Shown: one piece after another, positions 10,410 through 35,861 of the stretch
Layout: each line of letters opens with the position of its first letter
Position numbering within the stretch: the first letter of the stretch is position 1
DNA from: a bacterium
GTDB lineage: Bacteria > Patescibacteriota > Minisyncoccia > Phycocordibacterales > Phycocordibacteraceae
Direction of reading: 5' to 3'
DNA length: 41,270 nt
Assembly (NCBI GenBank): GCA_023267755.1
Contig: JAHFMR010000006.1
Coordinates: 1-41,270, forward strand
Position numbers and translations under genes: made by a program
The notes under the pieces: model-generated
What the model was told of the DNA's origin: nothing
What the model saw: only the letters and a program-made list of their open reading frames with translations
Databases searched by the model: none

Positions 10410-11267
10410 ATGGAGATTCGAGAACTCGCGCGAGAGGAGTGGCCGGAACAACTGCTCGAGATACCCCAGATACCGGAGCGTCTGTGGACGCGCGGTACGC
10501 TCCCGCCGCCCGGGACAAAATTGCTCACCGTGGTGGGCAGTCGCGCGATGACGCGCTATGCCGAGGAGGCGTGTCAGAAGCTGATTAGCGGGCTCGCGGG
10601 CTATCCTATCTCTATCGTCTCCGGACTCGCACTCGGCATCGACACCTGTGCACACAAGGCCGCACTCGCCGCCGGGCTCCATACGCTCGTCGTCCCCGGC
10701 TCGGGCCTCGGCGACGAAGTGCTCTATCCGAGAAGCAATCGCACATTCGCTAAAGAGATTCTCGCGAAGGGCGGTGGATTCATTTCTGAATATCCGCCCG
10801 ACGAACCTTCGCGGGTCTATTACTTCCCCGAACGGAATCGGATTATGGTCGGCCTCTCAGACGCCGTGCTTCTGATTGAGGCGGGACAAAAGTCGGGAAC
10901 GCTTATCACCGCACGTCTCGCGAGCGAGTATAATCGCGAGCTCCTCTGTATTCCCCATCGCATCGGTGATCCGCACGCCTTCGGCGGACATCTCTTCCTC
11001 CGGCTCGGCGCGACGCTCGTCACCGAACCGCTCCACATCCTCGAGGCGCTTAAGATACCGCCGCGCGAGGGAGCCGCGCGAGGCGAGGCACCGCGCGACC
11101 TCGAAGAAGCCGAGCTAGTTATCTGGAATATGCTCGCCGAGCCCCAGCCACGCGATGAACTCTTGCGCAGCACGAAGCTGCCCGTGGGCGAAGCCTTGAC
11201 CGCACTTGTCGCGCTTGAGCTACGCGGACTCATTAAAGAAGAGTTTGGTGCGTGGCGTCGTATTTAG
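10410..11267 (+). CDS. dprA: DNA processing protein DprA
   Basis: LTVVGSRAMTRYAEEACQKLISGLAGYPISIVSGLALGIDTCAHKAAL; GGGFISEYPPDEPSRVYYFPERNRIMVGLSDAVLLIEAGQKSGTLITARLASEYNRELLCIPH. Confidence 0.95.
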   Translation: MEIRELAREEWPEQLLEIPQIPERLWTRGTLPPPGTKLLTVVGSRAMTRYAEEACQKLISGLAGYPISIVSGLALGIDTCAHKAALAAGLHTLVVPGSGLGDEVLYPRSNRTFAKEILAKGGGFISEYPPDEPSRVYYFPERNRIMVGLSDAVLLIEAGQKSGTLITARLASEYNRELLCIPHRIGDPHAFGGHLFLRLGATLVTEPLHILEALKIPPREGAARGEAPRDLEEAELVIWNMLAEPQPRDELLRSTKLPVGEALTALVALELRGLIKEEFGAWRRI

Positions 11268-11292
11268 TTCGACTGTGTTCATCACAAGTAAT

Positions 11293-12063
11293 ATGAAAAT
11301 CTATTCCTGGAATATGCTGTACCGCAATAAGCGCCTCGATGAGGCCTTTACCTTTGTATCGAAGTCAGACTTCGATATTTTCTGTCTCCAAGAAGTGCCG
11401 GTTGAGTTCCTTGCACGCTTACGCACGCTCCCCTTCCATCTGGCAGAGACGATTGACGTCGAACGATTGCTCGGTGAAGTGAAGCGCAATCATCTTGTCA
11501 TTCTCTCTCGCAATGCTATCAAGAATCAAAGCGTCATCCCATTTCCTAATTATTGGCCGCTCTTACCGTGGCGCACCCACCTGTTCGTGCGTAGTATGCG
11601 ACCGTGGTTCTGGTCAAAGATTCAGAACCGCAGCGCGCTTTATGTAGATAGTATGGTCGGCGAGAGACTGGTGCGCGTGTTCAATTTACACACCGCCATC
11701 ACCCGAGTAGACTGGCGCATCCGCGAGTTCGAACAAACAATGGCCGAGCGCGACCCGACACTACCGACGATTGTCTGCGGTGACTTCAACGTGATGGAAT
11801 CTCCGAAAGTGTCGATATTGAATTGGCTCGTCGGCGGAAAGATAGGCGATGCGCTACGCTTTACGCGCGAGCGAACGCGTCTCGAGAAGCATTTTGTCGA
11901 ACACGAGCTGATGAATCCGCTTCGCGGAGTAACGACCCATCCCTTCTCGCGGAGTCAGCTCGACCACATCCTCGTCTCCAACTCTTTCTCAATACAAAAC
12001 GCCCTTGTCCTCAACGACCGCCACGGCTCTGACCATCATCCTATTTCTGTCGAAATCTTATAG
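11293..12063 (+). CDS. Endonuclease/exonuclease/phosphatase family protein
   Basis: MKIYSWNMLYRN, FDIFCLQEV, TIVCGDFNVMESP, SQLDHILVSN, GSDHHPISVEI. Confidence 0.9.
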   Translation: MKIYSWNMLYRNKRLDEAFTFVSKSDFDIFCLQEVPVEFLARLRTLPFHLAETIDVERLLGEVKRNHLVILSRNAIKNQSVIPFPNYWPLLPWRTHLFVRSMRPWFWSKIQNRSALYVDSMVGERLVRVFNLHTAITRVDWRIREFEQTMAERDPTLPTIVCGDFNVMESPKVSILNWLVGGKIGDALRFTRERTRLEKHFVEHELMNPLRGVTTHPFSRSQLDHILVSNSFSIQNALVLNDRHGSDHHPISVEIL

Positions 12064-12106: not shown

Positions 12107-14536
12107 ATGAGTAACCGCTTACTTATCGTCGAGTCGCCCACCAAGGCGCGTACCATTGGCAATTATTTAGGCAAGGGCTATACGGTCCTCGCCTCGGTGG
12201 GCCACGTGCGCGACCTCCCCAAAACGAATAAAGACGCGGTAGATATTGAGGGCGGCTTTATCCCACGCTACGTAATCCCCGCCGAGAAGCGTGAGATAAT
12301 CGAGAAGATCCAGCATGCCGCCGCCAAGGCCGACGAGATCTATCTCGCGACCGACCCCGATCGCGAAGGCGAGGCTATCGCCTGGCACATTAAGGAGGTC
12401 GCCAAGCTGAAGAAGCCTAAGCGCGTCGCCTTCCACGAAATAACCAAGGCTGCTATCGAAGAGGCGCTTGCCCACCCGCGCACTATCGATGAACACTTGC
12501 GCGAGGCGCAAGAGGCACGGCGCGTACTCGATCGCATCGTCGGCTACGACCTCTCCGGTCTCATCTGGAAGAAGGTCCGCTACGGTCTCTCGGCCGGCCG
12601 CGTACAGAGCCCCGCGCTCCGCATCCTCGCTGAGCGCGAGCGCGAGATTAAAGCATTCATCCCGGTAACCTATTTCGTATTGAGCGCGCTCTTCCGCTCC
12701 AAGACCGGCGACCTCGCGACGACCTGTACCGAAGAGCCTAAGACGCGCGAGGAGGCCGATCGAATCGTAAACACGGGTCGAAGCGCCGCATGGAGCGTAG
12801 CCGATATAAACGAGCGCGCCGAAGAGCGTAACCCGCGACCGCCCTTCACCACCTCGACCCTCCAACAGACTGCGTCGACCCGGCTCGGCTTCGCCCCCTC
12901 ACGCACGATGCGTGCTGCGCAGAAGCTCTACGAGGCCGGTCATATCACCTATATGCGTACCGACTCGGTAAATCTTGGTGCAGAGGCTGTCGCGAAGATG
13001 GCGAGCGTTGTCGAGAAACAATTCGGCAAGGACTATGTGCAGGTGCGCGTCTATAAAACGACAAGTAAGAATGCGCAGGAAGCGCACGAAGCTGTCCGCC
13101 CCACCGACCCTTCTCACGAGCGCGCGGGCGCGACATCCGACGAGGTGGAGCTCTACGCGCTTATTCGCACTCGTGCGCTCGCCTCGCAGATGGCCGCTGC
13201 CAAGGTGATGCGCACGTCGGTGAGTGCGAAGGCCGACAAGGCAGATATTCCGTTCTTCACCGCGAACGGTTCGCGCACTCTCTTTCCTGGCTGGCTTGCG
13301 CTCGACACCGCTGCACGCGGTGAGGATGTCGAGCTCCCAAAGCTCGTTGTCGGCGACTCCCTCTCGCTCATCTCACTCGCAGCAGAGGAGAAGCAGACCG
13401 AGCCGCCAAATCGCTACACCGAAGCAGGGCTTATCAAGGAGCTGGAGAAACGTGGTATCGGCCGCCCTTCGACCTACGCGTCTATTATGAAGACGATTCA
13501 GGATCGCGGCTATGTAGAAAAGCTCGGCCGCGCACTGAAGCCCACTGCCACCGGTATGGTCGTCTCGGGCTGGCTCGAGGAACACTTCCCGCAGTACGTG
13601 AGCGACACCTTCACCGCCGAGATGGAGAACGAGCTCGATGAGATAGCACGCGGCGAGCGTGGCTACACACAAACACTGCAGGAATTTTATGGCCCCTTTG
13701 AGAAGGCGGTGCGTGCTAAGGATAAATTGCCTAAGGCCACATCGCTCGGCGATGTGCCAAGCGAATTCCCCTGCCCGCTGTGCGGCAGCCCGATGGAGTT
13801 TAAGCTCGGTCGTGGCGGTGTCTTTATGAGCTGTAAGAAGTATCCCGAATGCCTGGGCGCCCGCACCGAAGAAGGACTCGAGCTTAAGGGTGATGAGCCG
13901 ATCGGTGTGCACCCAGAAACTGGCGCACCTATTTATATAAAGACCGGAAGATTCGGCCCGTATGTTGAAATGGCTCTCCCAGAACCCGAATCAAGGTTCG
14001 ACCTTAAATCCGAATCCTCAAGGTCGAACCTTGATTCGGATGAAAAAGAATCGAAGAAGAAAACGCCGGCCAAACGTGGTAAGGGTCGCCCCAAAACGGC
14101 CGCCAAGCGCGCGAGCATCCCTGCCGGCACCGATCTTGCGGGTGTTACACTCGCCGATGCAGTGCGCTATCTCTCGCTCCCGCGCGAGCTGGGGATGCAC
14201 CCGAGTACCGGCAAACCCGTCTTCGCCTCAACCGGACGATTCGGTCCGTATGTCGGCAGCGACGGTGAGTTCCGCTCGCTCAAGGCCGCGGTCGGCGAAC
14301 CCTACACTATCACCCTCGACCAAGCACTCACGCTCCTCGCTGAGCCGAAGAAGCCGCCGAAGGGTGTTGAGATTGTACGAGAGATTGGCAAGCACCCGAA
14401 GACCGGCAAGGTCATCTCACTCTACAAGTCGAAGCAGGGTTACTTCCTCAAGAAAGGTCTCCGTCGTATTTATCTCCCTGATTCCGTCGCTCCCGACGCG
14501 CTCACTCCCCCAGAAGCAGCTGAATATTTGAAATAA
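12107..14536 (+). CDS. topA: DNA topoisomerase I
   Basis: LLIVESPTKARTIGNYLGKGYTVLASVGHVRDLP; DREGEAIAWHIKE; ITYMRTDSVNLG; CPLCGSPMEFKLGRGGVFMSCKKYPEC; C-terminal repeat modules. Confidence 0.98.
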   Translation: MSNRLLIVESPTKARTIGNYLGKGYTVLASVGHVRDLPKTNKDAVDIEGGFIPRYVIPAEKREIIEKIQHAAAKADEIYLATDPDREGEAIAWHIKEVAKLKKPKRVAFHEITKAAIEEALAHPRTIDEHLREAQEARRVLDRIVGYDLSGLIWKKVRYGLSAGRVQSPALRILAEREREIKAFIPVTYFVLSALFRSKTGDLATTCTEEPKTREEADRIVNTGRSAAWSVADINERAEERNPRPPFTTSTLQQTASTRLGFAPSRTMRAAQKLYEAGHITYMRTDSVNLGAEAVAKMASVVEKQFGKDYVQVRVYKTTSKNAQEAHEAVRPTDPSHERAGATSDEVELYALIRTRALASQMAAAKVMRTSVSAKADKADIPFFTANGSRTLFPGWLALDTAARGEDVELPKLVVGDSLSLISLAAEEKQTEPPNRYTEAGLIKELEKRGIGRPSTYASIMKTIQDRGYVEKLGRALKPTATGMVVSGWLEEHFPQYVSDTFTAEMENELDEIARGERGYTQTLQEFYGPFEKAVRAKDKLPKATSLGDVPSEFPCPLCGSPMEFKLGRGGVFMSCKKYPECLGARTEEGLELKGDEPIGVHPETGAPIYIKTGRFGPYVEMALPEPESRFDLKSESSRSNLDSDEKESKKKTPAKRGKGRPKTAAKRASIPAGTDLAGVTLADAVRYLSLPRELGMHPSTGKPVFASTGRFGPYVGSDGEFRSLKAAVGEPYTITLDQALTLLAEPKKPPKGVEIVREIGKHPKTGKVISLYKSKQGYFLKKGLRRIYLPDSVAPDALTPPEAAEYLK
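13986..14039. repeat. In-frame palindromic element in topA: 20-bp perfect arms, 14-nt spacer
   Basis: ccgaatcaaggttcgacctt - aaatccgaatcctc - aaggtcgaaccttgattcgg; each arm is itself a mini-hairpin (AAGGT-NNN-ACCTT). Confidence 0.92.
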
Positions 14537-18017: not shown

Positions 18018-18890
18018 ATGTTGAAAATCTTGTGCATCGCAGGGCCGACCGCCTCAGGCAAGTCAAGTCGAGCTGTCGAAGAAGCGCTCGCGCGTGATGG
18101 TGAGGTTATTTCTATCGACTCACGTCAGGTCTATCGCGGGCTCGATATCGGGACCGAGAAGATATCGGCTACCGAAATGCGCGGCGTGCCGCACCATCTA
18201 ATAGATATCCGCAATCCCGAGGAGAATTATTCTGCCGGCGACTTTGTCACCGATGCAATACGCTTGATTGAAGAAATCACAGCGCGTGGGAACCTGCCGA
18301 TACTTGTCGGCGGGACGCACTTCTACTTCGATGCGCTTCTTAACGGCCTCCCAATCGGTGTCGACGCCAATCCGCAGCTGCGTGAAGAGCTCGAGCAGCT
18401 CTCGACCGAGGAGCTGTATGCGCGCGTCCGCCAAGCGGACGCGCGCCGTGCCGCAGAGCTGGACCCGCAGAACCGTCGCCGACTTATCCGCGCGCTCGAG
18501 ATTATCGCCTCCCTTGGGCACGTTCCACTCCGACACGAGGGGCACCCTCGTGCTGCACGAGGGTGCCCCTCGTGGGAGGTCGAGTGGATAGTGATTGACC
18601 CGTCGCGTGAAGAGCTGCGAGAGAGAATTAACACACGTCTCGCCACCGCCTTTAAGCGTGACCTCATCGAGGAGGTGCGCCAGGTGCGTACCCGTGTCGG
18701 CGATACGCGCCTTAACGAGCTTGGGCTCGAATATAGAATAGTCGGCGAGTACGTGTCCTCCTCCGCTGAAGCTACGGAGGACACGGCGCGTATCCAAGAA
18801 AAATTATTGCCGGTTCTATCGGCGAAGCTTTGGCAGTATGCCCGCCGCCAGAAAGCCTGGCTCCGCAAGCTTGGCCACTCGGCGTCCTAA
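18018..18890 (+). CDS. miaA: tRNA dimethylallyltransferase
   Basis: IAGPTASGKSSRAVEEAL, VISIDSRQVYRGLDIGTEK, GVPHHLIDIRNPEENYSAGDF, LPILVGGTHFYFDALLNGLP. Confidence 0.96.
   Translation: MLKILCIAGPTASGKSSRAVEEALARDGEVISIDSRQVYRGLDIGTEKISATEMRGVPHHLIDIRNPEENYSAGDFVTDAIRLIEEITARGNLPILVGGTHFYFDALLNGLPIGVDANPQLREELEQLSTEELYARVRQADARRAAELDPQNRRRLIRALEIIASLGHVPLRHEGHPRAARGCPSWEVEWIVIDPSREELRERINTRLATAFKRDLIEEVRQVRTRVGDTRLNELGLEYRIVGEYVSSSAEATEDTARIQEKLLPVLSAKLWQYARRQKAWLRKLGHSAS
18420..18446. repeat. In-frame palindrome 1 in miaA, 12-bp perfect arms
   Basis: gcgcgcgtccgc-caa-gcggacgcgcgc. Confidence 0.85.
18534..18574. repeat. In-frame palindromic element 2 in miaA, 20-bp perfect arms, 1-nt centre
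   Basis: cacgaggggcaccctcgtgc-t-gcacgagggtgcccctcgtg; each arm holds a mini-hairpin CACGAGG-GGCAC-CCTCGTG. Confidence 0.95.
18752..18785. repeat. In-frame palindrome 3 in miaA, 10-bp perfect outer arms
   Basis: cgtgtcctcc-tccgctgaagctac-ggaggacacg, encoding SSSAEATEDT. Confidence 0.85.
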
Positions 18891-20042: not shown

Positions 20043-20966
20043 ATGGAACCGCAGAAAAGTATTTTGTTCGTGTGCACGGGAAATATCTTCCGCAGCCTTG
20101 CCGCAGAACAGAGTTTCAAGCAATACCTCGCCGCCAACGCTATCGAGGGGTGGCGCGTCGCCTCTGCGGGTATCGTCGCTGCGCCACAGCCGACCGACCC
20201 AAAGACGCTTGAGACACTTCAGGAGCTCGGTATGGATGGCACCCGTCACGAGCAGCAACGTCTCACTCGCGAAATGCTTACCGAATACGACGTCATCGTC
20301 GGTATGGCAGAGAATCATATCGCGTATATGAAGTCCGAATTCGGCTACAACTACGCCTTTCTCTTCAACGAGCTCGCGACAGGAGAGAAGACGTCTATCT
20401 GGGATATTGAAGATGAGGTGTCGGACTACGCTCATAATCGGCAGGGTGTAGAGGAAAAGATTGCGCACACCGTGAGAAGTATCCACGACAAGATCCCCGC
20501 CTTGTTCGAATCGGCCTCTGAACGCTTCTACCTATTTAAGGATTTCATTGACGGAAAAGTTGCTCACCGGCACAACGGGTATCCTTTTATCACGCTAGAC
20601 GAGACGCCTCATTCTATCGCGTTTATGTCTATCGATATTCCGTTCAACGAAGATGGGCACGTCCTCGTAATCCCGAAGAAACGCTACTTCGACCTCTCCG
20701 AGATCCCCGATGAGATCCTGAGCAACATTCTCGCTTCCATCAAGAAGATAGGGCGCGCTCTAAACGTCGATCATGGCGGCTATAATATTCTCCTCAACAA
20801 CGGATTCGATGCCGGGCAATATATTATGCATACGCACTTTCATATCATCCCGAGACGGAGCGATGACGGTATAACAGTAGAAGGATGGGCGCATCCGAAA
20901 ATCAGTCTGGAGGATTTTGTCAGACTCAACGAGAAGCTTAAGCGACAGATAGAAGCAGTCTCTTAA
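20043..20966 (+). CDS. Fusion: low-molecular-weight protein tyrosine phosphatase-like domain + HIT-family hydrolase
   Basis: N-term ILFVCTGNIFRSLAAEQSF (CX5R P-loop); C-term HIT fold ending GQYIMHTHFHIIPR (HxHxH). Confidence 0.88.
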   Translation: MEPQKSILFVCTGNIFRSLAAEQSFKQYLAANAIEGWRVASAGIVAAPQPTDPKTLETLQELGMDGTRHEQQRLTREMLTEYDVIVGMAENHIAYMKSEFGYNYAFLFNELATGEKTSIWDIEDEVSDYAHNRQGVEEKIAHTVRSIHDKIPALFESASERFYLFKDFIDGKVAHRHNGYPFITLDETPHSIAFMSIDIPFNEDGHVLVIPKKRYFDLSEIPDEILSNILASIKKIGRALNVDHGGYNILLNNGFDAGQYIMHTHFHIIPRRSDDGITVEGWAHPKISLEDFVRLNEKLKRQIEAVS

Positions 20967-20971
20967 CATAA

Positions 20972-21004
20972 AAGTAAAACCGCCCCGAAGGGGCGGTTTT
21001 ACTT
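20972..21004. terminator. Bidirectional intrinsic terminator
   Basis: aagtaaaaccgcccc-gaa-ggggcggttttactt between the convergent HIT-fusion gene and rpmG; A/T tracts on both sides. Confidence 0.93.
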
Positions 21005-35133: not shown

Positions 35134-35152
35134 TACAAGGTTCAACCTTGTA
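35134..35152. repeat. RAYT-associated palindrome copy 1 (upstream)
   Basis: tacaaggtt-c-aaccttgta, 9-bp perfect arms. Confidence 0.9.
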
Positions 35153-35180: not shown

Positions 35181-35840
35181 ATGGCACGCACTTTTTCATT
35201 CGCTCCCGGTGAGTTTTATCACTTGTATAATCGCGGCACAGAAAAGCGGAATATATTCACTTCTAAAGCAGACCGCGACCGGTTCCTTACGCTTCTCTAC
35301 CTAGCAAACCAAGACATTCCCGCTGACTTAAAATTACAAGGTTCAACCTTGTTAGAGATAGTGAAACCAAAAGCGGGAGCTCCGCTTGTCGAGATCGTCT
35401 GTTATTGCCTCATGCCGAATCATTTCCACTTACTAGTACGCGAATTAGAAGACGGTGGGATTAGTAAATTTATGCAAAAAATTACGACTGGATACACGAT
35501 GTATTTCAATAAACGCTCCGACCGGAATGGCGCTCTCTTCCAAGGAAGATTTAAAGCGACTCACGTAGCTGATGATCGATACCTGCGCTACCTCATCTCA
35601 TACATTCATCTAAACCCTGTAAAACTTATCGAACCAAAGTGGAAAGAGACGGGTATTGCCAATCAAGTACACGCCGAGCGCTACCTCGAGACATATACTG
35701 CTTCAAGTTATCCCGATTATCTAGGTAAAAAACGCGCTGAAGGAATGATTCTTACTAAAGAAGCTCTGCCCGAATATTTCTCCTCTGGCTCCGACTTCAA
35801 AACCTTCGTCACAGAATGGCTTACCTATAAGTCCGATTAG
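35181..35840 (+). CDS. REP-associated tyrosine transposase (RAYT; Y1/IS200-like HUH transposase)
   Basis: FYHLYNRGTEKRNIF; HUH motif LMPNHFHLLV; catalytic Tyr region KITTGYTMYFNKR; FQGRFKATHV...YLRYLISYIHLNPVK. Confidence 0.93.
   Translation: MARTFSFAPGEFYHLYNRGTEKRNIFTSKADRDRFLTLLYLANQDIPADLKLQGSTLLEIVKPKAGAPLVEIVCYCLMPNHFHLLVRELEDGGISKFMQKITTGYTMYFNKRSDRNGALFQGRFKATHVADDRYLRYLISYIHLNPVKLIEPKWKETGIANQVHAERYLETYTASSYPDYLGKKRAEGMILTKEALPEYFSSGSDFKTFVTEWLTYKSD
35336..35352. repeat. RAYT-associated palindrome copy 2 (inside the transposase gene)
   Basis: acaaggtt-c-aaccttgt, 8-bp perfect arms, encoding LQGSTLL just upstream of the HUH motif. Confidence 0.9.
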
Positions 35841-35861
35841 TACAAGGTTCAACCTTGTACT
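35839..35861. repeat. RAYT-associated palindrome copy 3 (overlaps the transposase stop codon)
   Basis: agtacaaggtt-c-aaccttgtact, 11-bp perfect arms. Confidence 0.92.

Follow-up and report, generated by a model that had tools for sequence, protein, structure and literature searches.

The miaA gene of this bacterium, which encodes tRNA dimethylallyltransferase, carries within its reading frame a 41-nt perfect palindrome that is most likely a REPIN-like nonautonomous element mobilized by a RAYT-type transposase and tolerated in a permissive loop of the enzyme. The gene (18018..18890, plus strand, 290 aa) lies in the window, by which we mean the whole 41,270-nt stretch of contig JAHFMR010000006.1 that was analyzed, and is an intact ORF carrying the insertion (Pfam IPPT, PF01715, E 3.7e-62). 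The palindrome occupies positions 18534-18574, where it reads CACGAGGGGCACCCTCGTGC-T-GCACGAGGGTGCCCCTCGTG, with perfect 20-bp arms about a single central base, and as an inverted hairpin doublet it encodes most of the peptide HEGHPRAARGCPSWE. A sequence-only reading of this DNA had singled out the palindrome, and it is indeed far beyond chance: in ten shuffles of the window inverted-repeat arms never exceeded 12 bp. Its arm length ties for the longest in the window with one other 20-bp inverted repeat. That reading correctly located the palindrome within the MiaA peptide but numbered the residues 172-186, while HEGHPRAARGCPSWE corresponds to residues 173-187. The hairpin that it noted in each arm is present; an 8-bp stem closed by a 3-nt loop, CACGAGGG-TGC-CCCTCGTG, describes it better. 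It also proposed one long stem or two tandem hairpins as possible folds; as single-stranded DNA the long hairpin is favored, at -26.1 kcal/mol (z ~-9.5) vs 2 x -7.9 kcal/mol for the tandem hairpins. That reading, made from the sequence alone, did not include the repeat family, its transposase or the parallel insertions, all described below.

The palindrome is composed of two copies of a 17-nt hairpin unit, ACGAGGGTGCCCCTCGT (ACGAGGG-TGC-CCCTCGT), one on the minus strand at 18535..18551 and one in plus orientation at 18557..18573, each with zero mismatches. A search of the whole genome (583 kb in 21 contigs, a draft assembly) for this unit, which defines family F1, revealed eight inverted pairs on six contigs with spacers of 3-14 nt; the reversed-pattern control gave zero or one match. 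Two of these pairs flank a Y1 transposase gene, one is intergenic on contig C4, and five are located inside the conserved genes miaA, tsaD, trmD, rnhB and ligA, all in frame, such that 5/6 pairs outside transposase loci fall in coding sequence. The frame in which the element is translated differs from one host gene to another, and the encoded peptides are unrelated. In trmD it comprises 48 nt, or 16 codons, the rest of the loop having the length seen in relatives, and alignment to solved structures places the insert at a gap that precedes a conserved strand. In ligA, Pfam boundaries put the insert immediately ahead of the BRCT domain. F1 consists, by its eight pairs, of short palindromes in dispersed inverted doublets, as REPs and REPINs do. 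Its 16 hairpin units are below the more than 100 copies that also characterize REPs and REPINs, and its placement is not extragenic. By eye, the flanks of the 16 F1 hairpins showed no common tetranucleotide, neither GTAG nor a related one, on the 5' side.

The transposase gene flanked by F1 is located at 2988-3617 on contig C5 and encodes a 209-aa protein with a Y1_Tnp domain (PF01797, over the cut-off). The two F1 pairs are at C5:2922-2968 and C5:3636-3682, one on either side of the ORF, and flanking by its own hairpin type on both sides is one mark of a RAYT gene. A structural model of the protein (pLDDT 86.5) has as its best PDB match 4er8, TnpA-REP bound to a REP hairpin (E 2.8e-7), with the IS608 and ISDra2 transposases matching next. 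The HUH histidines H77 and H79, the tyrosine Y137 and N141 are invariant among 17 homologues. Because the protein scores 49.9 bits against the NCBIfam model REP_Tyr_transpos (NF047646), under its cut-off of 80, we call it RAYT-like. Its two closest homologues, 44-46% identical, come from other families of the order, and the hairpins adjoining them share the GGCAC/GTGCC loop with F1, on both sides of the gene in genome G066 and on one side in G080. The G066 hairpins, ACAAGGG-TGC-CCCTTGT, differ from F1 in the stem by compensatory changes, so that what is conserved is the single hairpin. On contig C6, one half of the F1 pair is of this G066 type. The C5 transposase is likely the mobilizer of F1.

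The product of miaA otherwise has the MiaA fold, with MiaA 2zm5 as a structural match (E 5.5e-18). In its model the insert lies between the helix of residues 153-166 and the strand of residues 186-192, which bears out the suggestion that it might fall in a surface loop, and confidence is lowered there, to a mean pLDDT of 72 over residues 171-180. The HEGHPRAARGCPSWE peptide is absent from the MiaA proteins of 29 congeners, and the loop, 19 aa here, measures 11-16 aa in 24/29 of them. Thus, the proposal of a recent insertion is supported, and it gains further weight from the recurrence of the same element in the reading frames of other genes. The same peptide with different codons, which would have spoken against the proposal, occurs in no homologue. 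Active maintenance of the long palindrome, the other explanation offered for its perfect arms, is not needed to account for the data. Long loops are the exception among the congeners and coincide with palindromes: each of the six loops of 19-26 aa, our own included (G000, G002, G003, G005, G017 and G018), contains a perfect palindrome, all of different sequence, compared with 2/24 loops of 11-16 aa, in which the palindromes are of 11-12 bp. Relatives have thus acquired insertions at this position independently and in parallel. Loops in TsaD, RnhB and TrmD vary among congeners in the same manner. The net gain in miaA is ~7 residues for a 41-nt element, so that, relative to the available homologues, the insertion is not clean; the simplest reason is earlier insertions and deletions in the loop. 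The comparison is one of congeners, among which neither a strain-level empty site nor a transposition event was seen.

F1 is one of four hairpin families in the genome, each linked to a transposase. Family F2 (AAGGTTCRACCTT) has its RAYT-like Y1 transposase in the window (35181..35840, plus strand, 219 aa; Pfam Y1_Tnp over the cut-off), which is 35% identical to the F1 transposase. F2-type hairpins lie 5' of this gene (TACAAGGTTCAACCTTGTA, 35134..35152), within its coding sequence (35336..35352) and at its 3' end (AGTACAAGGTTCAACCTTGTACT, 35839..35861). Outside this locus F2 has members in topA, tyrS and eno, the latter two holding single hairpins in frame. The topA member is a REPIN-like pair at 13986..14039, with AAGGTTCGACCTT cores and a 14-nt spacer, and is the second 20-bp palindromic doublet. 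It is in frame in the topoisomerase ORF 12107-14536 (Pfam), in the C-terminal part and, by alignment to solved topoisomerases, outside the catalytic core; its loop is TCG vs TCA at the window transposase. Family F3 (GACGTACGACGTC) has a transposase on C5 and an in-frame pair in alaS. Family F4 (GAAGTCNGACTTC) has a transposase on C2 and single hairpins in lysS, in frame, and in the window at 11361..11373 (GAAGTCAGACTTC), the latter in ORF 11206-12063, which encodes an Exo_endo_phos domain. With transposase loci left out, 11/14 elements of the four families are in coding sequence, in a census that covered 416 kb of the 583 kb, read as stretches and ~92% coding by a simple ORF caller.

Several further observations concern these hairpins. 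The topA gene of congener G024 holds a single hairpin of another family (L362:3129-3159). Many RAYT-like genes (window 35336-35352; L297, L289, L284, L291) hold their own hairpin inside the coding sequence, and these internal hairpins covary in sequence with the flanking ones, for which autoregulation or homing is a possible explanation. Peptides of the QLGGxxAK or QLGGxxSK type occur twice in each of four RAYT-like transposases. The window also contains simple hairpins, one terminator-like (AAGTAAAACCGCCCC-GAA-GGGGCGGTTTTACTT, 20972-21004) and one at the contig end (41242-41270). In a single ORF of the window (20043-20966), a HIT domain is joined with a domain of the low-molecular-weight phosphotyrosine phosphatase type.

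The association of hairpin and transposase extends to relatives. An identical 13-nt hairpin core is present on both sides of 18/33 transposase ORFs, as compared with 4/502 control ORFs, and the four control ORFs with such a core proved to be two transposases and two neighbors of transposases. In seven cases, hairpins inside genes are the same as the hairpin flanking their own genome's transposase, when permutation gives a mean of 1.35 (p ~1e-4). Inverted repeats in four genes follow transposase number (Spearman 0.64) and were found in 17/20 genomes with a RAYT vs 6/13 without (Fisher p 0.026), both values ignoring kinship and resting on counts inflated by conserved nondoublet inverted repeats around residue 91 of TsaD and residue 62 of RnhB. 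These two repeats (L250-L278 and L220-L248, respectively), mostly of 11-16 bp, are found in many congeners at one place each; they lack the doublet form, and we do not claim them as REPINs. Nested pairs were present in 4/4 RAYT-bearing genomes sampled, our own included, compared with none in 280 kb of two RAYT-free congeners and one simple GC-rich pair in 120 kb of a third.

These data bear on the other ways in which the palindrome might have arisen. The hairpins could be selected functional sites, such as terminators or attenuators, uptake sequences, or nucleoid or RNase sites, their position in genes being secondary. In other bacteria, inverted GC-rich pairs do have terminator or uptake-signal roles, and the miaA mRNA has a strong fold at the hairpin (z -5.4). 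However, the family found at the same place differs between species, most copies are in midgene, a harmful position for a terminator, a genome has only ~16 hairpin units, and the hairpin type follows the transposase, which makes this explanation improbable. It is quite improbable, too, that the encoded peptide was selected, with palindromic codons supplying useful charged loops to RNA- and DNA-binding enzymes. The hosts here do include genes for tRNA modification, a tRNA synthetase, a topoisomerase, a ligase and RNase HII, but such genes are common in the core of a reduced genome anyway, and the peptides are unrelated, coming from different frames in different genes. In addition, the hairpin cores show no avoidance of stop codons (13/120 frames vs a shuffled mean of 9.8). 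A local template switch within miaA, at an inverted repeat that was short and imperfect, with nothing mobile involved, would yield perfect arms about a one-base center and would fit a net gain of seven residues that is no clean insertion. A local event cannot, however, place the same 17-mer in eight pairs on six contigs and beside a transposase, and we regard it as very improbable as the origin of the element, though template switching may contribute to the identity of the two arms. That assembly or binning went wrong at an inverted repeat, as might happen in a draft of 21 contigs, is scarcely credible given eight copies, positions in contig interiors, intact ORFs, a matching transposase locus and comparable elements in many independent genomes.

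We therefore return to a mobile element of the REPIN kind, for which the known systems provide both parallels and differences. As in REPIN/REP systems with RAYTs (PMC3116915, PMC2817692, PMC8266576), the elements here are inverted doublets of a short hairpin that would disperse nonautonomously, a Y1/HUH transposase gene is flanked by its own hairpin type, and several families, each with a transposase, share a genome. Unlike those systems, the elements here are mostly intragenic and few in copy, with spacers of 3-14 nt and, in F1, no GTAG tag, and hairpins also occur within several transposase coding sequences. In Pseudomonas fluorescens SBW25, 14 of 1,067 REP 16-mers overlap genes (PMC3116915). 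GTAG/CGTC REP singlets and dimers have been described inside conserved genes, including uvrA and those for DNA ligase and tRNA synthetases, and recB carries them at nearly the same position in two Xanthomonas species (PMC3733652). Those REPs are mostly intergenic, in contrast to the present elements, which outside transposase loci are mostly in genes, and one MiaA loop here contains six different palindromes in six species. As far as Rickettsia palindromic elements (RPEs) are described where they are cited in PMC3733652, they resemble the present elements in being palindromic repeats within the protein-coding genes of a reduced genome, and in-frame palindromic inserts in protein genes are what we find. 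They differ, on the same partial account, in that each element type here is linked to a transposase gene, and the likeness drawn is one of description. With IS200/IS605 elements such as IS608 and ISDra2, the present system shares the transposase fold; unlike in that family, the mobile unit is without a gene and its two hairpins pair together. The hairpins of IS608 and ISDra2 are recognized as single strands.

When named genomes were scanned with AGGGGCACCCT..AGGGTGCCCCT, the matches were mainly in the actinobacterial genera Saccharopolyspora, Pseudonocardia and Lentzea (L052-L158). Doublets of 41 nt are numerous there; they share the AGGGGCACCCT/AGGGTGCCCCT core, and their 19-nt interior is constant. 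We claim no relationship with the miaA element, as the core only is common and the stems extend differently.

The following course of events would account for the miaA element. Two RAYT-type hairpins, inverted and separated by a very short spacer, would form the mobile unit, which the C5 transposase, in the manner of TnpA-REP and IS200/IS605 enzymes, would recognize as a folded single strand and insert at another site. One F1 doublet would have landed in frame in the length-variable surface loop of MiaA, and the insertion would have survived since the enzyme tolerated ~7 extra net residues; surviving copies in general would be those in frame in permissive loops. Movement by the C5 transposase, the single-strand chemistry and near-neutrality for MiaA are what we infer; the dispersed repeat, the transposase that it flanks, the in-frame position in a loop and the parallel insertions in relatives are observed. 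Whether the RAYT/REPIN system of this reduced-genome lineage is now mainly intragenic, with core enzymes repeatedly receiving species-specific doublets, in frame, in the same permissive loops and gaining new peptide segments from them, we judge to be evenly balanced.

REPs were named for their extragenic position, and to our knowledge no obvious enzyme has been linked to palindromic elements that lie in frame, such as RPEs. Intragenic REPs and RPEs have already been described; what is new here is a RAYT-linked, mostly intragenic form and the repeated use of a loop by different families, in a host that is probably a reduced genome of the Patescibacteria. We found neither this form nor a paper on RAYTs in Patescibacteria in the literature searched, which covers the field incompletely. 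The genome lacks ribosomal protein L30, and the control was found in 13/14 genomes. This absence and the 0.58-Mb size are compatible with Patescibacteria without being proof of it. If the system is indeed mainly intragenic, it would be a candidate mobilizer for protein-coding palindromic elements, RPEs included. In-frame palindromes and a probable transposase co-occur in several families and many related species, and their interaction is testable with short oligonucleotides. The elements show how mobile hairpins find room in a streamlined genome where intergenic space is scarce, and how loop length can change abruptly in a conserved enzyme like MiaA.
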